A stretch of 64,000 bases of DNA from Bacteroidia bacterium (lineage in GTDB: Bacteria > Bacteroidota > Bacteroidia > Chitinophagales > Chitinophagaceae), in the NCBI GenBank assembly GCA_030429205.1, contig JAUICZ010000001.1, positions 1,292,806 to 1,356,805 of the forward strand. Direction: 5' to 3'. Position 1 is the stretch's first letter. Each line of letters opens with the position of its first letter. Shown here one piece after another: positions 24,701-64,000 of the stretch. Made by a program: the position numbers and the translations under genes. The notes under the pieces were generated by a model. That model was not told where the DNA came from. It saw only the letters and a program-made list of their open reading frames with translations, and ran no database searches.

Positions 24701-27700
24701 ACGTTTACAGCAACCCCAAATAACGGTGGTACAACACCAAGTTACCAATGGAAAGTAAATGGTAGTAACGTAGGTACAAACAGTACTACATATACAACCA
24801 GCTCATTGAGTAATGGTGATGCAATTACCTGTGAAATGACAAGTAACGCTGCTTGTGCCAGCCCGACAGCTGCTACAAGTAATACCTTAAATATGACAGT
24901 GCAATCGTCTGTTACACCAAGTGTGGCTATTGCATCGGGTAGTGGTACTTCAGTATGTAACGGAGCAAGTGTAACATTCACAGCTACTCCAACAAATGGA
25001 GGAGCGTCACCAACATACCAATGGAAAGTAAACGGTAGTAACGTAGGTACGAACAGCTCTACATACACAACTACTACTTTAAGTAATGGTAATGCGGTTA
25101 CTTGTGAAATGACAAGTAATGCAACATGTGCCAGCCCGACAACTGCTACAAGTAACACCATTAATATGACGGTACAATCTACTCTTACACCAAGTGTGGC
25201 AATTGCATCGGGTAGTGGTACTACAATTTGTGCGGGAGCAAGTGTAACATTCACAGCTACTCCAACAAACGGAGGGGCGTCACCAACATATCAATGGAAA
25301 GTAAATGGTAGTAACGTAGGTACAAACAGTAATACTTTTACAACTACTACGTTAAGCAATAGCGATGCGGTTACTTGTGAAATGACAAGTAACGCAACAT
25401 GTGCCAGCCCGGCAACGGCTACAAGTAATACAATTAACATGACGGTGAATTCTCTGATTACACCGGCTAACACAATATCGTCGGGTAGCGGAACAACTAT
25501 ATGTACCGGTACAAACGTAACCTTTACAGCCTTCCCTGGTAATGGCGGTACATCACCAATGTATCAATGGAGGTTGAATGGTGCGAATGTTGGTACTAAT
25601 AGTAATACATATACAAACGCATCTTTGAGTAATGGTGATGTGATCACATGTAAGCTAACAAGTAACGCGGCATGTGTAAGTCCTGACTCAGCGATTAGTA
25701 ATAGTTTGACAATGACGGTGAATCCGTTCATAACTCCTTCTGTTAGTGTAGCACCGGCTCCTAACGATACTATATGCGATGGTGCTCAAGTAATATTTAC
25801 AGCAACGCCAACGAACGGTGGTACATCTCCTGCTTATACGTGGACGCTAAATGGCGATACTGTTAGTGGTATAACAACTAACTGGTATTTAACAGATACA
25901 TTAAATAACGGAGATCAGGTTGTTTGTGAAATGGTGAGTAACGAATCTTGTTTGACAACTCCGAATGCGACGAGCAATACTGTTTCTATGACAGTTAATT
26001 CTCTGATCGCTCCTGCGGTAAGTATAGCATCTAATAAAGGAACTATCATTTGTGTTACAGATACGGTAACCTTTACAGCAACGCCAACTAACGGTGGTAC
26101 GTCTCCAAGCTATCAGTGGAAAGTAAATGGCAGCAATGTTGGTACTAACAGTGCAACATATACAGCGATAGGCTTAACAAACAGTGATGAGGTTTCTTGT
26201 GTGATGACAAGTAATGCAACATGTGCGAGCCCGGTAACAGGTACAAGTAATACATTAACAATGACGGTGCAGGGTACAACGCCAAGCGTTAGTATAGCAT
26301 CAAGTGCGGGTACTACAATATGTGCGGGTACTAGTGTAACGTTTACAGCAACCCCAGCTAATGGCGGTCCTACTCCAAGTTATCAGTGGGAGGTAAACGG
26401 TAACTCTGTAGGTACAAACAGCAGCACATATGTTACAGCAGCATTGTCTGACGGAGATACGGTTACTTGTATCATGACCAGTAGCTTATCATGTTCTAGC
26501 CCGTCAGTTGTTTTAAGTAATAAAATAGGTATGACGGTGAATCCAAACCTAACACCTATCATAGCAATATCAGTTAGCCCGAATGATACAATATGTGCGG
26601 GTACGCAAGTTAAGTTTACCAGTACGTATGCAAACCAGGGTACAACACCAACTTTCCAATGGAAGGTAAACGGTAGCAACGTTGGTACTAATGCTGACAG
26701 TTTTGTAACAACAACGTTAGCAAACAACGATGTGGTTACAGTACAGTTGACCAGCAGTGAAACTTGTGTTACATCGAGCACAGCAACAAGCAATGGTATT
26801 ACAATGACGGTGAATCCAAACTTAGTTCCTGTTGCTACAATTGCTGTAACACCAAACGATACAATTTGTGACGCTGCAAATGCCATCTTTACATCCAGCA
26901 TTGCAAATGGCGGTACTACACCAACATATCAATGGCAAGTAAATGGTTTGAGTGCAGGGACAAATAATGATACATTCCAAACTACCGGTTTGATGGATGG
27001 TGACAAAGTGAGATTGATACTTACATCAAGCGAAACATGTTTGGCTAAGTCTGGTGATACAAGTAATGAGATCACTATGACGGTGGTACCAAACGTAACT
27101 CCTGTAGTGAGTATTGCGGTAACGCCTAATGATACAATATGTGCAGGTACAAGTGTAACTTTTACTGCAACCCCAACTAACGGCGGTACTACACCAACAT
27201 ATCAGTGGAAAGTAAACGGCACGAATGTTGGTACTAACAGTACAACATTTACAACAAGTACTTTGACAGATGGTGATGTTGTTGCTTGTGCAATGACCAG
27301 TAGCTTGCCTTGTGTAACATCAAGTACTGCAATTAGTAATGCAATAACAATGAAGGTTAACCCGATCATTACTCCAATGGTAACAATCGCGGTTAGTCCT
27401 AATGATACAATATGTGCCGGTACAACTACAACGTTTACCGCAACAACAACAAACGGTGGTACTGCGCCAACATACCAATGGAAATTGAATGGTAGTAATG
27501 TAGGTACAGGTGGTACTACTTACCTTAACTCTGGTTTGGCAGATGGTGATGTAGTTACAGTTGAGATGGTAAGTAACGGTGTTTGTTTAACTAAACCTGG
27601 TGATACGAGTAATGCTATTACAATGTCTGTAATACCAAACTTAACTCCGGTAGTTATTATCACTAAGTCGCCGGTAGATACAGTTTGTGAAGGTACAGCA

Positions 27701-30655
27701 GTAACTTTCAGTGCAACATCTGCAAATGGTGGTACATCACCAACATATCAATGGCAGGTAAATGGTTCTAATGTTGGTACAAACAGCCCGACGTACATAA
27801 GTACTACACTTAATAATGGCGATATAGTAAGGTTATCTATGACTAGTAGCCTGGTATGTTTAACCAAACCTGTAGATACAAGTAATACGGTTGCAGCAAT
27901 GGTAAATGCCAAGAAAGTACCGGATGTAACTATTACAGTTGCAGCTAACGATACTTTGTGTGCGGGTAATCTTGCAACATTCACAGCAGCTGCCGTTAAT
28001 GGTGGTACAACACCAAGCTATCAATGGCAGGTGAATGGAACTAATGTAGGTACTAATAGTAATACATATGCAACTACGGGCTTGTCTAATAATGACATGG
28101 TACGTTGTATTATGACAACAAGCGATACTTGTGTGACTAAGACAATGGACACAAGTAACGTAATAGAAATGACGATCACCCCGATCACTACTCCTGATGT
28201 AACGATCGCGGTTGCTCCTGACGATACAATATGTGATGGTAACACAGCAACATTCACAGCTACTGCTACAGATGCAGGTACAACGCCAAGCTATCAATGG
28301 CAGGTGAATGGTGTGAACGTAGGTGCTAACAGTAATATATTCGTAACTACTACATTGAATAATGCTGATGTTGTAAGATGTATTGTTACCAGCAGCGATA
28401 CTTGTGTTACCAAAGACAAGGATACAAGTAACACCATCACAATGACTGTGAAGCCGAACTTAACTCCGGTTATTACAATCACTGTAGCACCTAACGATAC
28501 AATTTGTGATGGTACATCAGTAACCTTCAGCACAACAGTAGCAAACGGTGGTACATCACCAACATATCAATGGCGCATCAACGGTACTAATGTTGGTACT
28601 AACAGCAGCACGTTCAGCAGCGGCACATTGTCTAACGGTGATGTTATAGATTGTATACTGACTAGTAGCGAAATGTGTGTGACGAAAGCGAAAGACACAA
28701 GTAATAGTATTACAATGACGGTGAATCCGAACTTGACACCTGAGGTCACTATTACGGTTAGTCCTGATGATACTATCTGTGCAGGCACAAGTACAACCTT
28801 CACTGCAACGCCAACGAATGGTGGTACTACGCCAACATATCAGTGGCAGGTGAATGGTAGTAATGCAGGTGCTAATAGTAACACATTTACCAGCACCACA
28901 TTAGCTGACGGAGATGTTGTAAGATGTATATTAACCAGCAGCGAAACATGTGTAACTAAGAGCATGGATACTAGTAACGTCATCAACATGACAGTTAAGC
29001 CATACTTAACACCACTTGTAGTAACTGTTGTTAGCCCGAACGATACCATTTGTGACGGTACTACAGTTACATTTACAGCAACGGGTGCAAACGGTGGTAC
29101 AACGCCGATATATCAATGGCGTGTGAACGGTACTAACGTAGGTACTAATGATACTACTTATACAACATCGTCATTGACAGATAAGGATACGGTGAGAGTG
29201 ATCATGACCAGCAGTGAAATGTGTTTGACAAAAGCTGCTGACACAAGTGATGATATCGTGATGACAGTGAATCCGAATTTGACACCTAGCGTAACAATTA
29301 CTGCCAGCCCGAATGACACAATATGTGACGGACAAATAACATCGTACAACGCAGTTGCTATTAATGGTGGTACTAGTCCAACTTACCAATGGAAGTTGAA
29401 TGGAACAAACGTAGGTATCAATAGTAGCGGTTATGCTACGGCTGGTTTGTCTACCGGTGATGAAATAGTATGTGTGCTTACGAGTAGCGAGGCTTGTGTA
29501 ACTAAGAGCATGGATACAAGTAATACGGTTACGATGTTTGTTCATCCATTAACCCAACCATCTGTTAGTATACTTGCCAACACAGGTACTACGATATGTG
29601 ATGGTGGAGAAGTGAAATTTAAATCAAACTGGTCTGGTGGTGGTACATCACAAGTGTTCCAATGGAGAAGGAACGGTGTAGATATTGCGGGTGCTACTAC
29701 AGATTCATTCACTACCAGCACCATGACAAATGGCGATGTGATTACATTGAGAATGGATATCACGGCAGAATGTCCTGATCCTGACAGTGCGGTTAGTAAT
29801 TTGTTAGCTATGGCAGTTGTTACACCAAGTGTATCTGTTGCAGTTAGCCCGAATGATACGATCTGTTTGAATCAATCAGCTATGTTTAGCCTTACAGGTA
29901 CTAATGTAGGTAACCTTCCTGTATACCAATGGAAAGTAAATGGTAACGATATGGTAGGTGCAGTTGCAGATGTATTTGCAATGCCAACTGTGAATAACGG
30001 AGACAAGGTGACGGTATCTTTTGTAAGCAGTGACAACTGTATTAATGCACCTGAAGTGCCAAGTGCTGATACGGTTACTATGGTTGTGAACAGTACAGCT
30101 GCTCCTACAGCAGGTATTACTGCTAACCCGAGCAACGTGTTCCAGGTAGGAGATGTGATATGGTTCACAAGTTCTGTTAATGTTCCGAATGCTACATACC
30201 AATGGCGTAAGAACGGTATAGACATTCCTGGTGCAACAGGTCTTGTGTATAACGAGTTGAATCCGAAAGACGGTGATACGATATCATTGTGGATCAGGTC
30301 TAATGACACTTGCCGTACTCCGGATACAGCAATCAGTAATATTGTGATACTAGAGCATGCTTCAGGTATTGCGCAAACACATCAGTTGTTTGATAAGGTG
30401 ACAATAGCGCCAAACCCGAACAACGGTACGTTTGTACTAAGCGGAGTGTTGAACACAGTATTGAGTGAAGAGAAAGTGACGGTAGAAGTGATCAATACTG
30501 TTGGGCAGGTGATATACAAAGAAGATGTTCAACTGCGTAAACACGAACTGGATGTGAGAATTGAGTTGGGTGATAAAGCGCACAATGGTCTGCATCTGAT
30601 CAGAGTATCTGCCGAAGGCAATAAACAGTTGTTGAAGTTTATTACCAATAGGTAG
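21752..30655 (+). CDS. giant secreted M43 metalloprotease with about 26 Ig-like repeats
   Basis: A 2967-residue protein with a signal peptide (MKKLLLFLMILVSGVAQAQ). The M43B (cytophagalysin/pappalysin-like) catalytic domain lies at about residues 60-340: zinc site HEIGHAFSLYH at 235-245, then the Met-turn region NIMNYATCMDRFTPGQ. A GEVED-like domain follows (RQRVQVYIDYNNDSTFSGGE). Some 26 Ig-like/CHU_C-type repeats of about 91 residues, each with a TICxG...YQWKVNG...SNTINM pattern and two cysteines, fill residues 505-2860. The C-terminus (TIAPNPNNGTFVLSG, INTVGQVIYKE, HNGLHLIRVSAEG) is a type A sorting domain. It should be exported by the type IX system and anchored or released at the surface. 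The repeats act as a long stalk or as an adhesin; the substrate is unknown. Confidence 0.92.
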   Translation: MKKLLLFLMILVSGVAQAQLCGFDGAHGQRMLTDSAYRNIVNAAKARYTSMMQTAGQNGIQLTTGYGTEYQIPLVVHVIHTGGSVGTTYNPSTSTINSMISYLNEAYEATYASYPDTNSGGVRIPIKFVLAQRDPSGSATSGINRVDGSSLSGYSLYGVKRNGSNGATDSAVKSLSVWDPADYYNIWVVNKIDSNDGTFGTYTAGYAYFPGASASIDGTVMLATTATSGNVTLPHEIGHAFSLYHTFQGDGTGSTCPTNGNCTTDGDLVCDTEPHKRTLGFCGSGMTNTCVSATYDDAVAKNIMNYATCMDRFTPGQRTRVMDAMTNERSGLGSSLGVLAPGSYPKVAACTTTISGGNAGNGFEMGPTQVILNDLRSSSNGYTNDNYRNYVDRSKQQQANVIAGESYTLTVQTTTNRQRVQVYIDYNNDSTFSGGELVYDHTGTISNTENHTTTLTIPTSGITTCTPLRMRVLADYYTATPVTNGCGTMAYGQAEDFAIYIKPQSDTVTLTNAITSGSSPTCPTGSVTFTASASKTLSSPSYQWYLNSQAVGTNSSTYTASSLSTGTYYVQCKVTYGNGCSATDSGTTNVVTLVSGSTVTPSVSIGASPSGTVCSGTSVTFTATPTNGGTTPSYQWKVNGSNVGTNSTTYTTSSLSNGDAVTCVMTSNDACASPTTGTSNTINMSISGSVTPSVSIASGSGTTICNGASVTFTATPTNGGTAPSYQWKVNGSNVGTNSTTYTTSSLSNGDAVTCVMTSNDPCASPTTATSNTVNMTVNGTVTPSVSIGASPGSSICAGTNVTFTATPTNGGTTPSYQWKVNGSNVGSNSTTYSNSSLSNGDIVTCEMTSNAACASPTMVTSNSINMSVTATVTPSVAIASGSGTSICNGASVTFTATPTNGGTTPTYQWKVNGSNVGTNSTTYTTSSLSNGDAVTCEMTSNAACPSPATATSNTLNMTVQSSVTPSVAIASGSGTSICNGASVTFTATPNNGGTTPSYQWKVNGSNVGTNSTTYTTSSLSNGDAITCEMTSNAACASPTAATSNTLNMTVQSSVTPSVAIASGSGTSVCNGASVTFTATPTNGGASPTYQWKVNGSNVGTNSSTYTTTTLSNGNAVTCEMTSNATCASPTTATSNTINMTVQSTLTPSVAIASGSGTTICAGASVTFTATPTNGGASPTYQWKVNGSNVGTNSNTFTTTTLSNSDAVTCEMTSNATCASPATATSNTINMTVNSLITPANTISSGSGTTICTGTNVTFTAFPGNGGTSPMYQWRLNGANVGTNSNTYTNASLSNGDVITCKLTSNAACVSPDSAISNSLTMTVNPFITPSVSVAPAPNDTICDGAQVIFTATPTNGGTSPAYTWTLNGDTVSGITTNWYLTDTLNNGDQVVCEMVSNESCLTTPNATSNTVSMTVNSLIAPAVSIASNKGTIICVTDTVTFTATPTNGGTSPSYQWKVNGSNVGTNSATYTAIGLTNSDEVSCVMTSNATCASPVTGTSNTLTMTVQGTTPSVSIASSAGTTICAGTSVTFTATPANGGPTPSYQWEVNGNSVGTNSSTYVTAALSDGDTVTCIMTSSLSCSSPSVVLSNKIGMTVNPNLTPIIAISVSPNDTICAGTQVKFTSTYANQGTTPTFQWKVNGSNVGTNADSFVTTTLANNDVVTVQLTSSETCVTSSTATSNGITMTVNPNLVPVATIAVTPNDTICDAANAIFTSSIANGGTTPTYQWQVNGLSAGTNNDTFQTTGLMDGDKVRLILTSSETCLAKSGDTSNEITMTVVPNVTPVVSIAVTPNDTICAGTSVTFTATPTNGGTTPTYQWKVNGTNVGTNSTTFTTSTLTDGDVVACAMTSSLPCVTSSTAISNAITMKVNPIITPMVTIAVSPNDTICAGTTTTFTATTTNGGTAPTYQWKLNGSNVGTGGTTYLNSGLADGDVVTVEMVSNGVCLTKPGDTSNAITMSVIPNLTPVVIITKSPVDTVCEGTAVTFSATSANGGTSPTYQWQVNGSNVGTNSPTYISTTLNNGDIVRLSMTSSLVCLTKPVDTSNTVAAMVNAKKVPDVTITVAANDTLCAGNLATFTAAAVNGGTTPSYQWQVNGTNVGTNSNTYATTGLSNNDMVRCIMTTSDTCVTKTMDTSNVIEMTITPITTPDVTIAVAPDDTICDGNTATFTATATDAGTTPSYQWQVNGVNVGANSNIFVTTTLNNADVVRCIVTSSDTCVTKDKDTSNTITMTVKPNLTPVITITVAPNDTICDGTSVTFSTTVANGGTSPTYQWRINGTNVGTNSSTFSSGTLSNGDVIDCILTSSEMCVTKAKDTSNSITMTVNPNLTPEVTITVSPDDTICAGTSTTFTATPTNGGTTPTYQWQVNGSNAGANSNTFTSTTLADGDVVRCILTSSETCVTKSMDTSNVINMTVKPYLTPLVVTVVSPNDTICDGTTVTFTATGANGGTTPIYQWRVNGTNVGTNDTTYTTSSLTDKDTVRVIMTSSEMCLTKAADTSDDIVMTVNPNLTPSVTITASPNDTICDGQITSYNAVAINGGTSPTYQWKLNGTNVGINSSGYATAGLSTGDEIVCVLTSSEACVTKSMDTSNTVTMFVHPLTQPSVSILANTGTTICDGGEVKFKSNWSGGGTSQVFQWRRNGVDIAGATTDSFTTSTMTNGDVITLRMDITAECPDPDSAVSNLLAMAVVTPSVSVAVSPNDTICLNQSAMFSLTGTNVGNLPVYQWKVNGNDMVGAVADVFAMPTVNNGDKVTVSFVSSDNCINAPEVPSADTVTMVVNSTAAPTAGITANPSNVFQVGDVIWFTSSVNVPNATYQWRKNGIDIPGATGLVYNELNPKDGDTISLWIRSNDTCRTPDTAISNIVILEHASGIAQTHQLFDKVTIAPNPNNGTFVLSGVLNTVLSEEKVTVEVINTVGQVIYKEDVQLRKHELDVRIELGDKAHNGLHLIRVSAEGNKQLLKFITNR
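23264..30350 (+). repeat. tandem array of about 26 Ig-like repeats (273 bp unit)
   Basis: Repeat units are about 273 bp long. Units 2 to 8 (23543-25450) are almost identical in sequence, with GTNSTTYTTSSLSNGDA-type blocks, which indicates recent tandem duplication. Later units (from about 25730) mostly share a different lead, SPNDTIC, and are more divergent. The array should be prone to recombination and to assembly collapse. Confidence 0.9.
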
Positions 30656-41506: not shown

Positions 41507-41513
41507 GTCTCAG

Positions 41514-41570
41514 TGCCCCAGGGGGGAATCGAACCCCCACTCACTTGCGTGAACCAGATTTTGAGTCTGG
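41514..41570 (-). tRNA. 3' fragment of tRNA-Leu(CAA), attL of the island
   Basis: On the minus strand the anticodon arm (CCAGA-CTCAAAA-TCTGG, anticodon CAA) spans 41554-41570, followed by a long variable arm (TCAC/GTGA), the T arm (41522-41538, loop TTCGAAT) and the acceptor 3' strand CTGGGGC (41515-41521) with discriminator A; CCA is not encoded. The anticodon stem's outer end is followed by unrelated AT-rich sequence: no D arm and no 5' acceptor strand GCCCCAG. It is therefore not a working gene but the repeated 3' part left at one end by an integrase acting at this tRNA. The intact gene is expected at the far right end of the element. Confidence 0.85.
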
Positions 41571-41670
41571 CGATTATTGTATTAATATGATTTGATATGT
41601 TCCGAAGTGGTTGATTTTACTGCGTTTTATATTTTATTGAATCAGGTTGTTTCAAGAAAAAACGCAAAAT

Positions 41671-41717
41671 GTTGTACCTATGTTGTACCCGTATTTTTTA
41701 TGGTTTCTGTATCTTTG
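41671..41717 (+). promoter_or_regulatory. integrase promoter with GTTGTACC direct repeats
   Basis: TATCTTTG at 41710-41717 is a perfect TAnnTTTG -7 element 22 bp before the integrase ATG. GTTGTACC occurs twice, at 41671 and 41682, 11 bp apart (one helical turn), and could be bound by the integrase or a regulator. No well-spaced -33 was found. Confidence 0.5.
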
Positions 41718-41739: not shown

Positions 41740-42945
41740 ATGGCTTCGATAAAGGTTGTTCTGCGGAAAAAGAAGAATAAAGACGGCACATTTCCGCTTG
41801 CAATTAGAATAACTAAAGATAGGAAAACATCATTTATCCATTTAGGGCAGCACCTTAAAGAGAAGGATTGGGATGCAAGTAATCAAAAGGTTAAAAAGTC
41901 GCACCCCAACTCAATAAGGCTTAATAATTACATTCTGAAAAAATTGTCAGAAGCAAATGATAAGTCGTTGGAGTTAGAATCAACAAAGAGGGTGGTTACG
42001 GCAAAATCAGTTTCTCAAAAGATTAAACCTAAAAGTGGTGAAACTGTATTCTCTCAAGCGGATTTGTTTCTCGAAAGGCTTAAAGAAGCAGGCAAGTATA
42101 ATAGGTGGAACAATGAGAAATCTAATATCAGGCATCTTAAAGCCTTCCTGAAAAATGATATTGCCTTTCAGGAGTTAACTATTCCGATGCTAAACAGGTA
42201 TAAAACTTTTCTTCTCTCTAATTATCAAATATCCGAGAGAACTGCAATTAATCATCTGGTAACTGTAAGATCAATATTTAGTCAGGCAATTAATGAGGGT
42301 GCTTGCGATGCTAAATATTATCCATTTGGTAAGGGTAAGATTATTATCAAATTTCCAGAGTCTAAGAAGATTGGGTTAACTACAGACGAGGTTAGGAAAA
42401 TAGAAGAAGTTGAGCTGGAAGGGCGAGCGAATCATGCCAGAAACTTATGGCTGATTTCATTCTATTTTGCAGGGATGCGTGTTTCAGATGTTTTGCGTCT
42501 GAATTGGTCAGATTTTCATGATGGCAGACTTTATTATACAATGGGTAAGAATAATAAAACTGATTCATTGAAAGTATCAGAGAAAGCCCAAAAGATATTG
42601 GATATATATGAAAATGAAAGGGTAGCTAATAATGATCTGGTATTCCCCGATATTCGCCATGTTGACCTGTCTGATAAGTTTGAAGCTGAGAAAAAAATAA
42701 AGACCAGAATTAAGGTCGTTGATGTGATCTTGAGGAATGATGTAGCTCTGGCAGCAGGGATAAAAAAGAAACTGACAATGCACATAGCCAGACATACATT
42801 TGGCAATATTTCAGGAGATAGAATACCAATTCAGATGTTACAAAAACTATATAGACATACTGATATTAAAACAACTATTGGCTATCAGGCTAACTTTATT
42901 CACAAAGACACTGATGATGCTTTGGAAAGTGTGATAGGATTTTAA
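41740..42945 (+). CDS. site-specific tyrosine recombinase (integrase 1)
   Basis: A 401-residue tyrosine recombinase of the Bacteroidota conjugative-element type: an N-terminal arm-binding domain (VVLRKKKNKDGTFPLAIRI), a SAM-like core-binding domain (about 105-205) and the catalytic domain with R247 (GMRVSD), H348-x2-R351 (HIARHTF), a histidine in LYRHTDIKTT and the nucleophile Y382 (GYQ). All catalytic residues are present. It lies 170 bp from the tRNA-Leu fragment, reading into the element, so it is the likely agent of its integration. Confidence 0.95.
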   Translation: MASIKVVLRKKKNKDGTFPLAIRITKDRKTSFIHLGQHLKEKDWDASNQKVKKSHPNSIRLNNYILKKLSEANDKSLELESTKRVVTAKSVSQKIKPKSGETVFSQADLFLERLKEAGKYNRWNNEKSNIRHLKAFLKNDIAFQELTIPMLNRYKTFLLSNYQISERTAINHLVTVRSIFSQAINEGACDAKYYPFGKGKIIIKFPESKKIGLTTDEVRKIEEVELEGRANHARNLWLISFYFAGMRVSDVLRLNWSDFHDGRLYYTMGKNNKTDSLKVSEKAQKILDIYENERVANNDLVFPDIRHVDLSDKFEAEKKIKTRIKVVDVILRNDVALAAGIKKKLTMHIARHTFGNISGDRIPIQMLQKLYRHTDIKTTIGYQANFIHKDTDDALESVIGF

Positions 42946-43483: not shown

Positions 43484-46270
43484 TTGGAAAAGATAATCGA
43501 GCTATTTAAAAAGTCTACTGTAAAACTCGTTTCGCAAGATGATAACTCAATAGTAGGTACAGGTTTTTTTATTTCAGACAATCATATACTGACTGCATTA
43601 CATAGTATATCGTTTCCACTCAATATTAATATTGTTTATCCAGGTGACTGGGAAACTCCGTTGAAATGGGCTTTATATAAAGAGTCCGAAAAATTAGACT
43701 ACGCGATTATTCAATTAGATGAAGATATCCCTGAAAAAGGAGTTTGTTCCTTAGGAAATAAATATCAGATTGATGACAAATTATTAATTATTGGCTACTC
43801 CATAGAAAATGAGTACGACGACGTTGTTACAATGAGAATTGAGGGATGGAGTAGAAATACACAGAACAGGAAATTACTTAAGGCAAAAGGAGGAAATATA
43901 TCGCGCGGGATGAGTGGAGCTCCAGTTCTCAACATGGATACTGGTGATGTTATTGGTATGATTTTAGAAACACGTGATGAAGAGAGTGATTTGGGAGGAT
44001 ATTTCGTGTCTATATATGATATACTTTCGGATAATGATGAAATAATAGCTTTCAATAACAATTGGCATACATTAAATCCTGTATGGAATAAGAATAAACC
44101 AAGTAGTAAATTAGGTATCGGCTACTATGATCAGACTTGGACAGACCAACACTTTTATATTTATCGTACTAACAAGTTGTCAATTGATGAAATATTGATT
44201 GCTCCTATTGTAAAAATGATAAAGTTTAGTGATGATGCTTTTGATGAAAATATTTTTGAACTTCCTATAGAGAATTTAATATCAAAATGCATTGATATTT
44301 TGGAGGCTCAATCAGTTCTTGTTATTACTGGTTCGTACGGAGCCGGTAAGTCAATATTTTGTAGGTTTTTTCAAAAAAAACTATTTGAGAATAACAACGA
44401 CACTGTATTTGTAAATTCTTATGAGTTAATTAATGATAAGATACAGTCGCGTGAATTACATAAGCTAGTAGTAGAGCGTTTCAAAGGTAAAAGTAATTCA
44501 TACATATTTCTAGATGCATTTGATGAGATATCCAAGATTACAACAACTGATGAAGAGGAATATGATTTCTTTAATTCCTTAGTGAAAGTATGTAAAAATG
44601 CTGGAGTTAAATTAATTATTAACTATAGAACATTAGACGCGATAGATAAGAAGAGTCAATATGACTATCCTGTCCTTTCGATTCTAGATAACCATAATTT
44701 AACTACTGTTACAATATTAGAGTTTCAGTTTTTCAACAATCGGAAAATAAACGAGTGGATTAATAATTATGCTTTGGCGATGAGCTATAAGGTCAGAAAA
44801 GAGGCGCTTACGATTAATGATGTGAAGAATGCGCATAAGAATCTTATATCAGCATGCAGTAATCCATTGTTTTTATACATGGTTGCGGTTAATTTTTATG
44901 ATGGGGAAGTGAGGCTTGAATCAATTAGAAATATATATGATGTTTATGAAAATTTTGTTAACAGTACGATTAAGGGGAAGTTTTCAGAGGAAAGGAAATC
45001 TGGAAATCAAATTATAAGGGGTATTACAAAAGAATATGAAGCTTTTTTGAAAGAAGTCGCATTTGAGATCGGCAAGAGGCATAATAACTTTGTAATAGAT
45101 GCAAAAAAAGAAATTGATGATGAGTTGTTGCTTGACAATAATGAAAATGTATTTGGTATTAGCGAAGATAGAATAGCAGTTCAAATTAGTTCTATCCTAA
45201 CAAGAATTTCTGACGATCAGGAGTTTTTAAATGGCAAAAGTATTAGCAAAAGGTTTTTAAACTGCTATTTCTTTACACAAAATGGAGACAAGTGGCTATT
45301 TAGAAACAACAATATTATGTTTTTCTTTTTGGCAAAGAAGGTCTTTGCTCAAATTGAGAAAGCAATAAGCATTTTTAGAGACAGAATAAATATAGAGGAC
45401 GCATTTACTCAAATAAAGGAGATTGAGAATATTCCTATTCACCCAATAATGTTAGAAATGCTCGTATATAAGCTGAATTCGCTCGACCAAACGACAAAGG
45501 CTAACCTGGAGTACTTTTTAAAATGTGCAATTGAAGAAGAGTATTTTCTAAGTATATCAGAAGATAAAGACTCGTTCAAAATTGACTTTAAGAAGGTCCA
45601 TCTAGATATATTTTTATGTATCCTATTTGTACAAATAAATAATGAAGGCTACCAAGGAATAAATTTCTTTTTTAAACGATTTACATGGTATCTCAGCGTA
45701 GCAAAACGCATTAATCCCAATATTCATTTTTTAGCTAAGAGATTTTATAAAACAGCTTCAATATCACATGCTGAACTAAGACGTCTAAATATTAAAGGGT
45801 TTAATTTCGACCAAGCTCAGTTAAAGAATGTAAAGTTTATACAAAATAAGATATATAACGTAAGAAAAAACGATACCACATTTAAGGATGTTGAATATCT
45901 GCTTTGTGATTTACAGAATGTTACTATGGATAATATTTCTGGGTCAATTAATTTCTATAATTGTATTATAGATCATATATACATAAACAACCCTAAAAAA
46001 GGTACTAGCTTAAACTTTGACAGGTGCAATATTAAAAGTGTTTTTATTAATTCTGATAAAAGAAGTAACCTGATAATCGCCATAAATAACTGTGGAATTG
46101 GGAATTTACACATAACTAATTGTTATGTAATTGAATTGAGATTGTCTCTAAACATCATAAGTAATATAAAGTACGTAAATTCCAGAATCAACTGTATCGT
46201 TGACAAAAACATTGGTTTTAATAATATTAAAACTGATGTTAAGTCTGAGATTAGTTATCAACACTTATAG
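43484..46270 (+). CDS. trypsin-like peptidase fused to NACHT/STAND NTPase, pentapeptide-like C-terminus
   Basis: A 928-residue protein; the only plausible start is TTG 43484, as the peptidase fold begins at once and the nearby ATG is out of frame. Residues 1-190: trypsin fold with GTGFFISDNHILTALHS (H40), KLDYAIIQL (D72) and SRGMSGAPV (S144), so the triad is complete. Residues 255-560: STAND/NACHT ATPase with Walker A GSYGAGKS (283-290), Walker B IFLDAFDE (341-348) and a sensor-like NYRTLDA. Residues 570-755: helical arm. Residues 756-925: repeats like LRRLNIKGFNFDQAQLKNV, resembling a pentapeptide beta helix, the likely target sensor. Probable anti-phage or conflict effector: sensing leads to ATP-driven assembly and peptidase activation. 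Inferred from architecture. Confidence 0.9.
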   Translation: MEKIIELFKKSTVKLVSQDDNSIVGTGFFISDNHILTALHSISFPLNINIVYPGDWETPLKWALYKESEKLDYAIIQLDEDIPEKGVCSLGNKYQIDDKLLIIGYSIENEYDDVVTMRIEGWSRNTQNRKLLKAKGGNISRGMSGAPVLNMDTGDVIGMILETRDEESDLGGYFVSIYDILSDNDEIIAFNNNWHTLNPVWNKNKPSSKLGIGYYDQTWTDQHFYIYRTNKLSIDEILIAPIVKMIKFSDDAFDENIFELPIENLISKCIDILEAQSVLVITGSYGAGKSIFCRFFQKKLFENNNDTVFVNSYELINDKIQSRELHKLVVERFKGKSNSYIFLDAFDEISKITTTDEEEYDFFNSLVKVCKNAGVKLIINYRTLDAIDKKSQYDYPVLSILDNHNLTTVTILEFQFFNNRKINEWINNYALAMSYKVRKEALTINDVKNAHKNLISACSNPLFLYMVAVNFYDGEVRLESIRNIYDVYENFVNSTIKGKFSEERKSGNQIIRGITKEYEAFLKEVAFEIGKRHNNFVIDAKKEIDDELLLDNNENVFGISEDRIAVQISSILTRISDDQEFLNGKSISKRFLNCYFFTQNGDKWLFRNNNIMFFFLAKKVFAQIEKAISIFRDRINIEDAFTQIKEIENIPIHPIMLEMLVYKLNSLDQTTKANLEYFLKCAIEEEYFLSISEDKDSFKIDFKKVHLDIFLCILFVQINNEGYQGINFFFKRFTWYLSVAKRINPNIHFLAKRFYKTASISHAELRRLNIKGFNFDQAQLKNVKFIQNKIYNVRKNDTTFKDVEYLLCDLQNVTMDNISGSINFYNCIIDHIYINNPKKGTSLNFDRCNIKSVFINSDKRSNLIIAINNCGIGNLHITNCYVIELRLSLNIISNIKYVNSRINCIVDKNIGFNNIKTDVKSEISYQHL

Positions 46271-50183: not shown

Positions 50184-51368
50184 TCACCCTGCATTTTTTT
50201 TAATATAATCAGCCCAATCTTGCATCATGATTTTTCGCTCGTCTAAGAACTGCGCCCTATCATACGCAGCATCAACACTATTTCTATGAGCGTGTGCAAG
50301 TTGACGGTCAACTACTTCGTGCCTATAACCTAATTGTTCTTTTATAGCTGTCATGGCTAATGCTCTAAAACCATGCCCTGTAGCTTTGCCCTTATATCCC
50401 ATTCTATAAAGCGCATAGAGGATAGTATTATTACTCATTGGCTTTCTTGGTGATGTTTGACTTGGGAGCACCCATTCCCATTGATGATTTGAACTATAAA
50501 GCTCTATTAGTATTTCCATTACTCTATCAGATAAAGGCACTATATGAGCTTTACTCATTTTCATTCGTTCTTCAGGGATTATCCAAACCCTATTCTTGAA
50601 GTCTATTTCCTTCCATGTGGCTTCAAGAAGTTCATTTGTTCTCACAAAGGTTAAAAGCATCAATTCAATAGCAAGCTTTGTACGGAGAAATAACCTCGCT
50701 TGATTTGTATGAAGCTTATAAATAAACTCTGGCAACTCTTTTACATCTAGCGCCGCATAATGTTTTGTTCTAGCGGTTTTAAAAGCACCGATAATATCTA
50801 CTGTTACATCTCTATCAGCTCTACCCGTAGCAACAGCATAGCGGAATATTTGACTGCTATACTGCCTTGCACGCTTAGTTGTTTCAAACAAGCCTCTCGC
50901 TTCGATCTTTTTAAGTGCATTCAATAATATTACCGGAGTAATAGATTTAATGGGAAGTCTTCCAAGTGTTGGAAATATATCAGTTTTCATTCTTTTTAGA
51001 ATAGTATTTGCATAACCTTCCGACCAACGTTCTTTCATGTTATCATGCCATTCTAAAGCTATGGCCTCAAAGGTTGTCTTTGACTCACTATAAGCTGTGT
51101 AGCGTTTTTCGATCTTGTTTAATGAAGGGTCTATATCGTTCTCTAAAAGCTTCTTTGATATGCCCCTTTTTTCTCTTGCTTCCTTTAATGATATTTGAGG
51201 GTATGAACCTAGTGCCAAACGCTTCTCTTTCCCTGCATAGCGGTACTTAAAGCGCCACAGTTTGGACCCTGATTTAGTAATTTCTATGTATAACCCGCCT
51301 CCATCATAGATTTTGCGTTGTTTTTCGTTTGTCTTAATGCTTGATAGCAACCTGTCTGTAAGTCGCAT
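50184..51368 (-). CDS. P4-type tyrosine integrase (integrase 2)
   Basis: ATG 51368 is chosen because AGGAGGT (51376-51382) lies 7 bp upstream, a genuine Shine-Dalgarno sequence and unusual in this phylum. The 394-residue protein has the DUF4102 N-terminal domain (DGGGLYIEITKSGSKLWRFK, LALGSYPQISLKEARE), a core-binding domain and a catalytic domain (VRTNELLEATW, GHGFRALAMTAI, LAHAHRNSVDAAYDR). This group usually targets tRNA 3' ends and is commonest in Proteobacteria. AlpA, also with a Shine-Dalgarno, is the neighbour. The gene reads away from a set of repeats that look like its attachment region. Confidence 0.93.
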   Translation of the reverse strand: MRLTDRLLSSIKTNEKQRKIYDGGGLYIEITKSGSKLWRFKYRYAGKEKRLALGSYPQISLKEAREKRGISKKLLENDIDPSLNKIEKRYTAYSESKTTFEAIALEWHDNMKERWSEGYANTILKRMKTDIFPTLGRLPIKSITPVILLNALKKIEARGLFETTKRARQYSSQIFRYAVATGRADRDVTVDIIGAFKTARTKHYAALDVKELPEFIYKLHTNQARLFLRTKLAIELMLLTFVRTNELLEATWKEIDFKNRVWIIPEERMKMSKAHIVPLSDRVMEILIELYSSNHQWEWVLPSQTSPRKPMSNNTILYALYRMGYKGKATGHGFRALAMTAIKEQLGYRHEVVDRQLAHAHRNSVDAAYDRAQFLDERKIMMQDWADYIKKNAG

Positions 51369-51390
51369 ATTCTCTACCTCCTGAGCTGTC

Positions 51391-51652
51391 TTGGGGGCAT
51401 GCTGGTTTTTTGCTAAAAATATGCCCCCAATCATGCCCCCAAATATCTTAGAATAGGTGGGACTCACACGGAAGACATGAAACGACAAAACGCCTGAAGG
51501 TGGCTGTTTGTCTAGTGTTATGGGAATGAATGAGACTTGTTGAAACCAGTTCCTGGCTCCGCGGGAGTGGTACACGTTTCCGCTTTAAGCCTCTGATTTA
51601 GAACAATACTGTCAATCACTTTTTTATGATATGCCCCCAAATGTGCCCCCAC
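51391..51652. other. five TGGGGGCAT arm-type repeats around a likely att region
   Basis: TTGGGGGCAT occurs at 51391 on the plus strand, and as ATGCCCCCAA at 51421, 51433 and 51631, with a variant GTGCCCCCAC at 51643. Within each close pair the spacing is 12 bp. Between them, 51480-51600, lie compact hairpins (GACAAA/TTTGTC, CTCC/GGAG, CCAG/CTGG). Repeats of this kind upstream of P4-type integrase genes are taken as integrase arm sites. No gene lies in 51369-51792. Confidence 0.6.
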
Positions 51653-54404: not shown

Positions 54405-55598
54405 TTAACGAAGTATATTAGAGAAAAGCTCCTTTACTAACAGAGCCAAAATGTCGTAATTATACCATAAAAACGCAATGAAGCCCCACACTAGAAGAAC
54501 GCCGATAACTCTAATAAGTAACAAATAAAGAAAGACCAACTTTAAAATTGATTTTGCATTAACTGCATCTGGTAATCCATTTATTTGATGAAGTATGTAA
54601 TTGGTGTGTGTATCAAGTGAACGCACGAAATTTTCATCAGGATAGTTAATCACTCCGTTTCTGATATATATATCCGTTTCTTGATCATTCGATTTAACTC
54701 TGTAAAGCTCGATGTAAGCAGCATATACTATTATTTCATCAGATAACTTGTTCGTGTCGCTGTTAGTAGATATATAATTAGAAGGAATTAACTTACGATA
54801 GATTTTAGTAGAAGTATCCCATGGAAAATCAATGCCTTTTTCATTGCTAAGAATTTTATTATTTGTGATTGTTTTTAATTCTGAAATAAGCTTTCTAAAT
54901 TGAAATACACTCCCATTTCCTTTACAGTTTTTGCATCTTATTTCACCTCTTCTGCGACAATTAGGACAAGTGTATTCTATTAAAATATCTCCATGGCACT
55001 TGGTGCAAATTTCTTCAATTTCTCTTTCTTCGTATTGAGAATAGCTATTAGGCTTCTTATTTCTAACAATCCTTGTTTTTTTTCCTAATCCCAAACAGCT
55101 ATTACATGGCCCTATTATTATACCCTTGCCGGAACATTCTTTACATGTAACAAATCTGTTGCCATTGCATACTTTACAGAAGTTTACTTCCTCTCCTCCA
55201 AACATTATCCATGTTAAGCTAATATCTTTATAATTTGGTCGTTTTTTGTCCCACAATAGTTCTAGCTGTTCGCTTGTTGTCTGGTTTATAAAAGGAGTTT
55301 CTTCAATTTTTATTTTTCTATGTTCGTTTTTAACGTGATTAGATATATTTATTAGAAAATATCTAGCATTTAATTTTACTGAGTTTTTAAAGGTAAACCC
55401 TGCATCTGTGAATGGAATTTTAAGCTTCCAGCTATCTAAAAGAGTGGCAAATTTTCCTTCTTCAGTATTATGCTTATGATAAATGTTGTTTAACTCACTG
55501 TTTAAGTTTTGGTACTCTTGATTTGTAAATTGAACAGAATAATTATTATATAAGTAGTCAGATAAGCTATGTATAGCTTTGTCTATTTCTTCATTCAT
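54405..55598 (-). CDS. DnaJ-type zinc-finger membrane protein
   Basis: A 397-residue protein. Residues 140-235 hold many Cx2C pairs in a DnaJ-like CxxCxGxG arrangement: CKVCNGNRFVTCKECSGKG, CNSCLGLGK, CTKCHGD, CPNC, CKNCKGNG. The J-domain itself is absent. A single or double membrane helix lies near 355-385 (LVFLYLLLIRVIGVLLVWGF). The N-terminal 130 residues are helical. A folding or scaffold role for the mobilization apparatus is possible. In the leftward operon upstream of small hypothetical genes. Confidence 0.7.
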   Translation of the reverse strand: MNEEIDKAIHSLSDYLYNNYSVQFTNQEYQNLNSELNNIYHKHNTEEGKFATLLDSWKLKIPFTDAGFTFKNSVKLNARYFLINISNHVKNEHRKIKIEETPFINQTTSEQLELLWDKKRPNYKDISLTWIMFGGEEVNFCKVCNGNRFVTCKECSGKGIIIGPCNSCLGLGKKTRIVRNKKPNSYSQYEEREIEEICTKCHGDILIEYTCPNCRRRGEIRCKNCKGNGSVFQFRKLISELKTITNNKILSNEKGIDFPWDTSTKIYRKLIPSNYISTNSDTNKLSDEIIVYAAYIELYRVKSNDQETDIYIRNGVINYPDENFVRSLDTHTNYILHQINGLPDAVNAKSILKLVFLYLLLIRVIGVLLVWGFIAFLWYNYDILALLVKELFSNILR

Positions 55599-56431: not shown

Positions 56432-57967
56432 CTAATTATTTTCGTCTTCAAAGTTTTGTTCAAAGATCACTTTCATGTGGTTTGTTCCTGTTGACCATCT
56501 TTTCCCTGTTGAAAAAACGATCCCTTCCACATCAAAGTTATTTTGCAGCCCGCCACTTTTAAAAAGCGTAAACTCCATTGGTTGAACTTGCGGCAAATAT
56601 GTTGTTTGCATGCTTTTATTGGATTGTATGTTCATTGAGAATAATGAGCGACTGGAACCTCTTGTTGAGTTGAATCCGATTGTACTACCTATTAAGTTGC
56701 TTGCATAATCATTTGTGACGGCATCTGAATTAGCATGAAATATTTTTGTAGCTAAATTTCCCATGAAACTATGGACTTGAGAATCAGTATTAGATTTTGC
56801 CCCCATCGCAGCCATATAGTTTGACAGATTTTGCGATAAAAACACAGTTGCAGCCCTTGAGCTTCTTGCTGTTGTAAGAAAAATCTGATCATATGGATTT
56901 AAGAAATACTGTGCTTCATCAGCCCATATAAAAACAGGCGTAGGGTGTTCATCTGTTTTTCTACGCTCAACAGCTTGTTGGAAAATGAGTTTGAAGATAC
57001 TTTGTGCCATTATCCCTGCCTCAAGGTGTTCTTTAACTGGAAAATCTAAAAGGATGATCTTATTATCGGTAAAAGCTTCTTCAGGTTTTAAAGTTGTTTT
57101 ACCTGAAAAGTGCTTTTCAAGTAACCCTGATAAAAAAGGCTCTGCTAAACCCATAAATGATTCTACAATGGTTGTATGAGTTTGACCAGTGATACCTGGT
57201 AATGATTCTGTAAAGTACTTATATATCGAATCATAAGTAGTAAATAAACTAGAGCCTTGTTCTTCCTCTTCAATATTTACATAAGCCAGAGCAAGGCATT
57301 TCAGAAAGTAATTTTTGGATAGTAGCTCGTCTTCAAAATTTTGCTGATAAACTAATCTTATTGCATTTCTCATATTTTGTTCTGAAAACGGCTTGCTTTC
57401 TGTTGGACTACTTGTAACGATAGCAATCATGTTTTTATAGGTAAGCTCTTCATTTGCTATAATAATTAGTTCAATCGTTTTGTTTAAAAGCCGTTTTAGT
57501 GCTGTGTCCCAGAATCTGTTATCGCTTCCTCCTTCAGAAGATTCATTAGTAATGCGATTCCCCATTTTATACAGATTCATAAAGATGTTCGTGATATTGA
57601 AAACCTCTTTAGCTCCCTCTCCTTCTCTTGTCATTTCATAGTCCAAGGGGTTGAAGATTATAGTTTTCCCCTCATGTTTCCCAGAATCATGGGTAGCATC
57701 CTTGCTGAAGTGTATTATATCATGTTCTCTATTTGTCTTTTTACAGTAATCCCACCATAAGTCTGCTTCGTCTGTTTTTGCACAAAGAACTAATCCGCCC
57801 CAACCTTTTTTAAGAAATTGTAGTGCAATAGCTTTGCCTGAACCGCTTGTTTTACCACTGCCTGTGCCACCTAATATTGATGTTCCTTTTATAGCATCAT
57901 CTACTGTCCAGTAATCTTGAGGGTTTGAGGAGAATTTTAATAGGACTTCTTGTCTCCAGTCTTCCAT
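56432..57967 (-). CDS. TraG/VirD4-like conjugative coupling protein
   Basis: A 511-residue ATPase with Walker A GGTGSGKTSGSGK at residues 33-45 and a Walker B-like PVFIWADEAQYFL at about 343-355, then a glutamine-rich sensor region SQNLSNYMAAMGAKSN. The first 30 residues lack the usual N-terminal membrane helices, so it may rely on the adjacent small membrane proteins. VirD4-type proteins dock the relaxase-DNA complex to a mating pore. No mating-pore ATPase is visible in the window. Confidence 0.88.
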   Translation of the reverse strand: MEDWRQEVLLKFSSNPQDYWTVDDAIKGTSILGGTGSGKTSGSGKAIALQFLKKGWGGLVLCAKTDEADLWWDYCKKTNREHDIIHFSKDATHDSGKHEGKTIIFNPLDYEMTREGEGAKEVFNITNIFMNLYKMGNRITNESSEGGSDNRFWDTALKRLLNKTIELIIIANEELTYKNMIAIVTSSPTESKPFSEQNMRNAIRLVYQQNFEDELLSKNYFLKCLALAYVNIEEEEQGSSLFTTYDSIYKYFTESLPGITGQTHTTIVESFMGLAEPFLSGLLEKHFSGKTTLKPEEAFTDNKIILLDFPVKEHLEAGIMAQSIFKLIFQQAVERRKTDEHPTPVFIWADEAQYFLNPYDQIFLTTARSSRAATVFLSQNLSNYMAAMGAKSNTDSQVHSFMGNLATKIFHANSDAVTNDYASNLIGSTIGFNSTRGSSRSLFSMNIQSNKSMQTTYLPQVQPMEFTLFKSGGLQNNFDVEGIVFSTGKRWSTGTNHMKVIFEQNFEDENN

Positions 57968-58937: not shown

Positions 58938-59071
58938 CCTTAAAGATGCGTTAAGGGGAGATGTCTGATGTATTTCGTTTTACGAATACATCGAATATTA
59001 TTTTACTTTCTGTATTATAAAAATACAGTTCTCAATATTTCATATTGAACCATGTTAGACCGTGTTGAACC
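58938..59071. other. candidate oriT: three hairpins and 10-bp iterons
   Basis: Hairpin 1 is CCTTAA/TTAAGG (58938-58956). Hairpin 2 is GATGTATT plus CG with its partner (58967-58992) with one bulge. Hairpin 3 is CTGTATT/AATACAG (59010-59028). Then TTGAACC, TTAGACC and TTGAACC start at 59045, 59055 and 59065, exactly 10 bp apart on the helix face. All lie 98 bp before the MobF relaxase start. The nic site is not identified. Confidence 0.55.
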
Positions 59072-59169
59072 AATATTTTTTTGCTCGGAAAAAAGCCGCT
59101 AATATGCTCTTCCGGCGATGTTTCGGTGCGCCTATAACTGAGGCAAGAAGTGTAAATAAAATTGGTTTT

Positions 59170-61953
59170 ATGTTGAGGATTAATGCTTGTGTTTCGGCGG
59201 AGGGAGCTAAGAGATATTATTCAGAATCTCATTATGTAGAAGGTAAGAATACACGCCTAGATTACTATAAAGAGAAAAGTGAATTTATGGGTCTGTGGGG
59301 AGGTAAAGCAGCTCACAAAATGGGCTTGAGTGATGGCATCCGAAAAGCTGATTTTGATGCTTTATGTGACAATAAACGACCTGATAAGGGTGAAACCTTA
59401 ACGGGGCGTACCAATGACAATAGACGCGTAGGATATGACTTCACCTTTAATGCAAGCAAGTCTGTCAGTATTGCACATGCTTTTGGAAAAGAGGAAGAAA
59501 AGCGAGAGATATTAGATGCGTTTCAAAAATCTGTCAGAAGTACAATGCTAGAGGTAGAAAAGAATATGCTGGCAAGGGTACGGAAGAAGAATGACAATTA
59601 TGATAGGGAAACAGGCAATATAGCTTATGGAGAATTTACACATTATACTACCAGACCTGTAAAGGGGATTCCTTACCCTCATTTGCACATTCATTGTTTT
59701 GTCTTTAATGGAACTTATGATGAAAAAGATAAAAAATGGAAGGCGGGGCAATTTGGACAGATCAAGAAAGATGCTTCATATTATCAGGCTTATTTCCATT
59801 CTAAATTAGCCAAGAATTTACAAGATGTTGGATATGCAGTAAGGAGGACCAAAGATGGTGTTGAGATGGAGGGTGTAAATAAAGGTTTGATCGATAAGTT
59901 TTCAAAAAGGACTAAAGAGATAAATGAACATGCTTTAAAACATGGGATTATAGACGCAAAAAGTAAAGCCAATATAGGTTCGAAAACCAGAGCTAGTAAA
60001 AAAGGAGCTGTAAGTGAAAGGGAGCAGCTTATTGAGTGGAAAAAGAGATTTTCGATTCAGGAGATAGAACAGGTTAGAAATTTGAAGAAGGAAAATCTAT
60101 CACCTGAAAACAGAGAAAATAAAAAATATGCAAAGCAGGCGGTAGAAGATTCTATTAACCACCATTTAGAGAGAAAATCTGTTGTATCTGATAAGGAAAT
60201 ATTAGCCTTTGCACTAAAAAGATCAATTGGGGAATCGGAACCAGAAAATGTAATAGCTGCTTTTAAAGAGAGGGCAGATGTTATTTCTGTAAAAGAGGGT
60301 AATCAAATATTGATTACTACTAAGGAAGCGTTAAGTGAAGAAAAGAAGCTGATCACTCATGCCAATTCTTATAGGGGTAAATTCAAACCTTTAAATAAAG
60401 ATTACATATTCCAAAATGAAGTTTTGAATAAAGAGCAAAAGAGAGCAATTCAACATGCACTTAGCACAAAAGACGGTTTGATAATTATTTCTGGTAAAGC
60501 CGGAACGGGGAAAACTACTTTAATGAAGGAGGTGAAAGCCGGTATCCAACTAAGCGGCAAGAAAATATTTTCTTTTGCCCCTTCCGCTGATGCAAGCCGT
60601 AATGTACAACGAAGTGAGGGTTTTGCCGATGCTGATACTGTTGCTTCATTGATCGGGAATAAAGACAAGCATTCGCAACTTAAAAACCAAGTATTATGGA
60701 TAGATGAAGCAGGACAGCTTTCTAATAAGGATATGAATAAATTGTTTGAAATAGCAAAGGAGCAAAACGCAAGAATAATGCTTTCAGGTGATATTAGGCA
60801 GCATAATAGTGTGAACAGGGGAGATGCGTTAAGAGTAATTCAAAAATATTCTGCTGTGAAGGCTATTACAGTTAATAAGATACAAAGACAGAAAAACAAG
60901 GAATATAGAGGTGCCGTGAAGCTTCTTTCAAACGGCAATGTTGAAAAGGGGCTGAACAAACTAGATCAGATTGGTTCTGTTCATGAGATAGAGAGGAATA
61001 ATGAAAGAGTTAAGGCTATCGCAAATGATTATATGGAATCTGCATATAAAGGGAAAATCAGCAAAAATGTTTTGGTTGTAGCACCCACTCATAAAGAGGG
61101 TGAACGAATAACAAAGCAGATAAGGTACCAGCTTAAAAATGAAGGGAGACTTGCGAGGGAAGATAGAGAGTTCAAAATTTTAAAGAAGGTGCAATTAACT
61201 GAAGTGGAGAAGAAAGATATTGATAACTACAAAGTTGGTCAGGTTCTCTCGTTTCATAAAAACATGAAGGGTGTGAGGGCTGGTTCACATCTTGCAATTA
61301 AAGAAATTCATAACAATTCAATAATAGCTAATGACAGACAGGGAAATCATTCAATTATTTCTCTGGATAATTCTGATAGGTTTAGTGTCTATGAGAAAGT
61401 TAAAATATATCTGACAGAGAAAGATAAAGTACGAATTACAGGCAACAGTAAGTCATTAGAAGGTAAAAGGCTTTATAATGGCTCTACTTATGAAGTTAAA
61501 GGGTTTGATGAAGCTGGAAATATAAAATTGTCTAACGGTTCTGTTATCTCAAAGAATTACGGGCATTTTAATCAGGGTTATGTTGTTACGTCTCATAGTT
61601 CACAGGGCAAAACTGCTGATAAGGTAATTATATCGCAAAGCTCTAACAGCATTAAAGCCTCTTCAATGGAACAGTTTTACGTTTCTGTCTCCAGAGGGCG
61701 CAATGCAGTTTCAATATATACTGATAATAAGCAGGATTTGCTAAGAGGAATTAAGCAGACGACTCATAAGCTTTCAGCAATGGAACTTACGGGTAAGACA
61801 AGTATGTTTAGCATGGTTCTAAAGAATAATAGATCAAAGATGCTTAAAGATTTAAAACAGAAAGTAGGATTGAGGATTGAGAATGCAAAGGCAAAAATCA
61901 AAGCAAATGAACTTCCGAGAAAGAATATTACAAGGGCGGTCAGAACTAGATAA
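59170..61953 (+). CDS. MobF-family relaxase/helicase
   Basis: ATG 59170 is chosen since MobF relaxases begin almost at once with the catalytic domain (LRINACVSAEGAKRYYSES, tyrosines 16 and 17). Length 927 residues. The metal-binding histidines are HLHIH at 171-175 with RRVGYDFTFNASKSVS before it. The C-terminal half is a RecD-type helicase with Walker A SGKAGTGKTTL (near 442), LWIDEAGQL, and GYVVTSHSSQGKTADKV. The protein nicks at oriT, binds the 5' end and unwinds the strand. The next gene overlaps its last 47 bp. Confidence 0.93.
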   Translation: MLRINACVSAEGAKRYYSESHYVEGKNTRLDYYKEKSEFMGLWGGKAAHKMGLSDGIRKADFDALCDNKRPDKGETLTGRTNDNRRVGYDFTFNASKSVSIAHAFGKEEEKREILDAFQKSVRSTMLEVEKNMLARVRKKNDNYDRETGNIAYGEFTHYTTRPVKGIPYPHLHIHCFVFNGTYDEKDKKWKAGQFGQIKKDASYYQAYFHSKLAKNLQDVGYAVRRTKDGVEMEGVNKGLIDKFSKRTKEINEHALKHGIIDAKSKANIGSKTRASKKGAVSEREQLIEWKKRFSIQEIEQVRNLKKENLSPENRENKKYAKQAVEDSINHHLERKSVVSDKEILAFALKRSIGESEPENVIAAFKERADVISVKEGNQILITTKEALSEEKKLITHANSYRGKFKPLNKDYIFQNEVLNKEQKRAIQHALSTKDGLIIISGKAGTGKTTLMKEVKAGIQLSGKKIFSFAPSADASRNVQRSEGFADADTVASLIGNKDKHSQLKNQVLWIDEAGQLSNKDMNKLFEIAKEQNARIMLSGDIRQHNSVNRGDALRVIQKYSAVKAITVNKIQRQKNKEYRGAVKLLSNGNVEKGLNKLDQIGSVHEIERNNERVKAIANDYMESAYKGKISKNVLVVAPTHKEGERITKQIRYQLKNEGRLAREDREFKILKKVQLTEVEKKDIDNYKVGQVLSFHKNMKGVRAGSHLAIKEIHNNSIIANDRQGNHSIISLDNSDRFSVYEKVKIYLTEKDKVRITGNSKSLEGKRLYNGSTYEVKGFDEAGNIKLSNGSVISKNYGHFNQGYVVTSHSSQGKTADKVIISQSSNSIKASSMEQFYVSVSRGRNAVSIYTDNKQDLLRGIKQTTHKLSAMELTGKTSMFSMVLKNNRSKMLKDLKQKVGLRIENAKAKIKANELPRKNITRAVRTR

Positions 61954-62891: not shown

Positions 62892-63161
62892 TTAGAATTT
62901 GTTTTTGACGTTCTTTTCTAAATATTCAAGAATTGATTCTTTATCATATAAAATGATTTTCTTTTCAGGTTGTGAGTAGCGTATATCACCATTATTTCTT
63001 CGCTCTAATAAGGTTGTTTTACTAGAGATTCGTAACATACGCATAGCCTCTTCCCCAGAAATCCATCGATCTTCTTTTATAGATTGTTTCTCTAAAATAC
63101 GCTCGACTGCTTTTTCAAGGAGCGTGTGAAAGGCTTCGTCTTCAAGGCAGATTACTTGCAA
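62892..63161 (-). CDS. helix-turn-helix (MerR/excisionase-like) DNA-binding protein
   Basis: A TTG start at 63161 (QVICLEDEAFHTLLEKAVER) is the only fitting start. The 89-residue protein has the Bacteroidota helix_turn_helix_17 pattern: WISGEEAMRMLRISSKTTLL, ERRNNGDIRYSQPEKKIILY. This class is found in mobile elements and acts as an excision or transfer regulator. Located 4 bp upstream of the Q/K protein gene and 5 bp downstream of the CFI-box gene. Confidence 0.82.
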   Translation of the reverse strand: MQVICLEDEAFHTLLEKAVERILEKQSIKEDRWISGEEAMRMLRISSKTTLLERRNNGDIRYSQPEKKIILYDKESILEYLEKNVKNKF

Positions 63162-63748: not shown

Positions 63749-64000
63749 ATGGCAGACGCTCTATTGCCTTGGAGTAATTTAACATGGAATCAATTCCAGC
63801 GGTTAACGATTCATATTGCACAGCAAAAATATCCTGGACACTTCTTTGAAGAGTATCTAAAGCAGGGGAATGACCAAGAAGGTATTGATATAATAAATAG
63901 CGCGGTAGATTCAGAAGGTAAGTATATAACTCTACAATGTAAGCATGTTGTTAAACTCACAAAATCAGTACTTGCCAAAATCATTAATGACTTTAGCGAT
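63749..64000 (+). CDS. N-terminus of a restriction-endonuclease-like (Mrr/STAND) defence protein, partial
   Basis: ATG 63749 opens a frame of 84 codons running off the window. The sequence ADALLPWSNLTWNQFQRLTI then NDQEGIDIINSAVDS and YITLQCKHVVKLTKSVLAKI shows the D-(x)n-QxK core of the PD-(D/E)xK nuclease fold, in the form known at the N-terminus of Avs/STAND-type anti-phage proteins. The remaining domains are outside the window. Together with the Trypco1-trypsin-NACHT pair it marks the element as a defence carrier. Confidence 0.8.
   Translation, partial: MADALLPWSNLTWNQFQRLTIHIAQQKYPGHFFEEYLKQGNDQEGIDIINSAVDSEGKYITLQCKHVVKLTKSVLAKIINDFSD

Follow-up and report, generated by a model that had tools for sequence, protein, structure and literature searches.

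The right edge of the window, i.e. the whole stretch of 64,000 nucleotides analysed here (G000:C4:1292806-1356805 in contig coordinates), cuts through a gene, raising the question which protein starts there and what it does on the DNA carrying it. An ATG at position 63749 opens a frame on the plus strand that gives 84 residues and is still open at the window end (63749-64000), just as claimed by the original prediction, which took this part as a nuclease preceding a large STAND ATPase and named a stop within 100-200 codons or a missing ATPase as refuting outcomes of reading past the window end. Reading the frame on in the same contig, we found 1393 codons with zero internal stops (L002:749-4930, plus strand, the end being extended window coordinate 67930). 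As the gene continues to 1393 aa, neither refuting outcome arose, and the expected large STAND ATPase follows the nuclease in the form of a NACHT ATPase. Sequence and the model of a relative together give the order effector (nuclease), NACHT and C-terminal sensor, i.e. a tripartite layout: residues 1 to about 170 are predicted to form a Mrr-like PD-(D/E)xK nuclease containing D47, Q63 and K65; a NACHT ATPase that includes winged-helix and helical domains would occupy residues about 205-545, and an α-solenoid of α-helical repeats residues about 546-1393 (about 850 residues). The structural case is that of the AlphaFold2 models of the relative L033 from Chitinophaga sp. CF418, which is 36% identical to the query protein, was modelled in two halves and has the motif QSK where the query has QCK.

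Within the nuclease head the motif is spaced D47-x15-Q63-C-K65, the putative metal-binding Asp of the PD-(D/E)xK core being encoded at 63887-63889 and the QxK motif Q63-C64-K65 at 63935-63943, both on the plus strand. In an alignment with 11 relatives, some of them only about 25% identical, G40, Q43, G45, D47, Q63 and K65 are invariant. The Pfam scores of the query are weak, the 84 visible residues alone matching Mrr_cat with E 0.0087 and Mrr_cat_2 with E 0.019, both under the curated cut-offs, and the full protein scoring under the curated cut-off for Mrr_cat; Mrr_cat_2 is matched by 8 of the 11 close relatives with a best E of 2e-8. Since the motif is invariant in all 11 relatives and Mrr_cat_2 is found in most of them, we regard the D/QxK pattern as no product of chance. 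Residues 12-127 of the L033 model show the α/β order of helices and strands expected for a restriction-endonuclease-like core, and motif, profile and secondary structure together argue for such a fold of the head, bearing out the Mrr-type QxK nuclease core that had been read from the visible residues. The weak Pfam scores and a canonical PD that is not obvious ahead of D47 would also fit a head being inactive as a nuclease and mediating only DNA binding or assembly, which we consider highly improbable, D47, Q63 and K65 being retained even at about 25% identity. We therefore favour a functional nuclease head, in which D47 is presumably essential.

The central region carries a Walker A motif at residues 223-231 (GDAHLGKTT, G223-T231) and a Walker B motif of the DGhDE type at residues 283-290 (IIIDGLDE). 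Across 15 divergent relatives G228, K229, D286, G287 and D289 are invariant and E290 is nearly so; the Pfam NACHT score of the query lies under the curated cut-off, those of the relatives L008 and L010 above it. In the model of the N-terminal half of L033 (pLDDT 84, pTM 0.80), residues 160-557 align with NLRC4 at Z 27.3 (VIA) with an rmsd of 4.0 Å over 365 residues, the likeness extending beyond the ATPase core through the winged-helix and helical domains; NLRP3 and NOD2 are matched at Z 25-26 and Apaf-1 at Z 14. The original prediction had assigned the protein to the Avs/STAND type. A true Avs (AVAST) protein, whose TPR-like repeats would directly bind a conserved structural protein of the phage (e.g. 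portal or terminase), would share the order of parts, as in Avs4 and other Avs proteins a nuclease-type effector likewise precedes the STAND ATPase, with a long helical sensor behind it, and residues 3-415 of the L033 model align with Avs4 chain 8dgf_B at Z 12.6 from the nuclease into the ATPase. However, with Z 25-27 to NLRC4, NLRP3 and NOD2 the ATPase is far closer to NACHT proteins, placing it in the NACHT branch of the animal NLRs and bNACHT proteins, i.e. a branch of STAND other than that of Avs, and PADLOC gave no model of any kind for the query, Avs types included, up to E 10. This makes an Avs protein very unlikely, so that of the earlier assignment the STAND part stands and the Avs part is replaced by NACHT. 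A sequence search of the PDB yielded no believable relative, the homeobox matches obtained there being due to chance.

The C-terminal half, too, would speak against an Avs protein. In the model of L033 it is almost entirely helical (pLDDT 83, pTM 0.50), its best structural matches being solenoids of the HEAT and armadillo type at Z about 13, a level that any helical repeat may reach, and in a profile search a designed HEAT-like alphaRep was matched at E 0.006. The predicted sensor thus looks HEAT/ARM-like, in contrast to the TPR-like sensor of Avs proteins, and nothing in the matches indicated the TPR-type sensor that had been anticipated. Divergence within the protein is greatest in this sensor: identity between the query and L021 is 40% in the head, 42% in the NACHT and 34% in the sensor, and that between the query and the distant L006 is 26%, 30% and 19%, respectively.

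Full-length relatives sharing this layout were found in Chitinophaga, Pedobacter, Sediminibacterium and other Chitinophagaceae, and of 396 genomes from the family of the host 15 gave a match, more distant or partial ones counted; in genome contigs the relatives came from a query with an alignment, a query with the single protein giving none there. Viral contigs contained no relative, phage records showed one weak match to the NACHT region, and in plasmids we found partial matches only, to the head in Streptomyces and Rhodococcus and to the NACHT in a Bacteroides plasmid. The Streptomyces althioticus plasmid encodes an annotated NACHT protein (L047:5911-11196) whose N-terminal 150 residues are 29% identical to the query head, the remainder being unmatched. 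As this protein matches in the head alone, the nuclease head appears to be common to other chassis too. Conversely, the same NACHT and sensor are found with other heads: L007, L009 and L010 carry a DUF4062 head (by Pfam in L010 only, E 0.001, and by alignment in the others), L030 has another nuclease-like head, and one distant relative, by its sequence L028, has a SMEK head (E 7e-28). In a tree of the chassis calculated without the head, L028 and the Mrr-like-headed L027 are sisters with a support of 100/100, and because these sisters have different heads we conclude that heads are exchanged on a common chassis.

Among described systems, bNACHT25 and bNACHT32 of clade 6, in which a PD-(D/E)XK nuclease at the N-terminus is combined with a NACHT module (PMC12169576), resemble the query in being single proteins with a PD-(D/E)XK head, a central NACHT and a C-terminal sensing region. 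bNACHT25 degrades DNA when a phage infects, and its defence is lost on D48A mutation (PMC12169576), this essential Asp lying at an almost identical position to D47 of the query. The same paper describes an NCH1 domain C-terminal to the NACHT (PMC12169576); no Pfam match to an NCH1-like domain was found after the NACHT of the query, and dependence on DnaJ, as in bNACHT25, is not to be presumed for it. By NACHT sequence the closest named antiphage model is EruA (NCBIfam NF058535, NACHT antiphage protein), matched by the query at E 0.036 and by the DUF4062-headed L007 at E 1.6e-14, in both cases over the NACHT region only and far under the 1000-bit cut-off; EruA differs in that the NACHT of the model begins near position 17, leaving no space for a nuclease head. 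L007 and L010 match PDC-S60 of PADLOC, a candidate defence protein, at E about 1e-22, so that PADLOC already lists relatives with a different head among its defence candidates, although this match is mainly over the DUF4062 head, which is absent from the query. The kind of system, i.e. a NACHT/bNACHT protein with a nuclease head, is already known, and the query is a new member of it.

Which DNA carries the gene is answered by two exact 56-bp attachment repeats in direct orientation. The left copy (41510-41565) corresponds to the 3' half of a minus-strand tRNA-Leu(CAA) gene, and the identical right copy lies at extended coordinates 68017-68072 (L002:5017-5072), separated by 86 bp from the end of the nuclease-NACHT gene, which is the last gene before it. 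The repeats delimit an element of 26,507 bp with a G+C content of 34.5% compared to 41.2% on its left. A tyrosine integrase with Arm-DNA-bind_5, SAM_5 and Phage_integrase domains (41740-42945, plus strand) begins 174 bp from the left repeat, and the 20-bp repeat TGTTGTACCTATGTTGTACC, with its left copy at 41670-41689 on the plus strand and its right copy at 67962, within the element and close to its right end, probably represents arm-type sites, to which the integrase would bind. The element further encodes a protease-STAND protein of 928 aa composed of a trypsin-like protease, an nSTAND3-like STAND ATPase and pentapeptide repeats (43484-46270, plus strand), a TraG/TraD-type coupling protein (56432-57967, minus strand), a TrwC/TraI-type relaxase-helicase (59062-61953, plus strand) and, between relaxase and nuclease-NACHT gene, a small HTH_17 DNA-binding protein (62892-63161, minus strand). 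Because the matching tRNA-Leu(CAA) repeats enclose all of these, protease-STAND, mobilization genes and nuclease-STAND lie on one element, confirming the proposal of a single element with the protease-STAND at the integrase end and the nuclease-STAND near the mobilization genes. With an integrase by the repeat and relaxase and coupling protein inside, we classify it as an integrative mobilizable element at tRNA-Leu. Type IV secretion genes besides the coupling protein were not recognised among the element proteins scanned, a subset of its genes, suggesting an element that is mobilizable rather than self-transmissible. Adjoining the coupling-protein genes, 54405-55598 (minus strand) encodes a protein of 397 aa that has DnaJ-like zinc-binding repeats of the CxxCxGxG type, matched weakly by Pfam, and ends in a hydrophobic segment at the C-terminus.

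Inside the element, at 50184-51575 on the minus strand, there is a second tyrosine integrase that differs in type from the first (Arm-DNA-bind_3, Phage_int_M), and the 17-bp repeat AATCAGCCCAATCTTGC joins 50207 and 46496. The second integrase makes nesting possible, as a nested or decayed insertion, the outer repeats still enclosing both STAND genes. A third copy of the tRNA-Leu(CAA) repeat further right (L002:19747 region) and an intact tRNA-Leu(CAA) at C4:1431673-1431757 (L018:15868-15952) show that insertions have occurred successively and in tandem, leaving tRNA 3' fragments behind. Neither Rfam nor ARAGORN gave a hit in the window, and the split tRNA fragments were located by eye and BLAST. 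In a comparison with genome G002 the right flank of tRNA-Leu is kept and the left flank is on other contigs, so this comparison gives no clean view of an empty site. The interval between two of the tRNA fragments (L002:5073-19740) holds two-component genes and no recognisable integrase; a further integrase by its sequence (L003:771-2021) adjoins the third fragment and is followed by a large cluster reading as metal resistance with two P-type ATPases and an RND pump (L003:6503-19081). Further on, a DNA cytosine methyltransferase is accompanied by a histidine kinase-like ATPase (L018:9617-12830). On the left side of the element we noted an open frame of 2967 codons (21752-30655, plus strand).

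The position as last gene before the right attachment repeat raises the alternative of a protein whose main role, instead of defence against phages, would be to protect the mobile element, either by attacking plasmids and rival elements that enter the cell or by killing cells from which the element has been lost. One relative, L034, likewise adjoins mobilization genes (a MobA-type relaxase with MobC). Such a position is, however, common for antiphage cargo too, no antitoxin-like partner was recognised, and most of the protein is made up by a large sensor-like solenoid, all of which renders protection of the element unlikely. We instead consider the product likely to be a bacterial NACHT (NLR-related) protein that unites antiphage sensor and effector in one chain, its gene being cargo at one end of the integrated mobilizable element. 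In keeping with this, some other relatives also have mobility genes beside them, namely an integrase (L043), a serine recombinase (L033) and the relaxase of L034.

By analogy, its function is most likely abortive antiphage defence by triggered DNA degradation. This would be a model according to which the solenoid senses either a product of the phage or a host protein that infection has perturbed, this recognition frees the NACHT module for ATP binding and oligomerisation, and oligomerisation gathers the nuclease heads, resulting in degradation of phage and host DNA, which would stop the infection at the expense of the cell. Infected cells would thus probably be killed to stop phages; sensing of the trigger, oligomerisation, DNA cutting and protection against phages are all steps that we infer from known systems of this kind.

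Only tentatively do we suggest a wider interpretation, in which the proteins would form a Bacteroidota-centred NACHT immune family with a conserved HEAT/ARM-like sensor for a cue unused by known Avs and bNACHT proteins, and in which the mobilizable element would pair the nuclease-NACHT protein with the protease-STAND protein, two sensors with different killing heads guarding the host of the element. With these findings the bacterial proteins related to animal inflammasome sensors gain a defined family, having full-length members of the same layout in Chitinophagaceae and Pedobacter and distant members with other heads. The sister pair L027 and L028 provides a clean, direct example of effectors being exchanged while the sensing chassis remains the same. 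Finally, a mobilizable element with two STAND genes of different effector types makes the idea of a layered, element-borne immunity testable.
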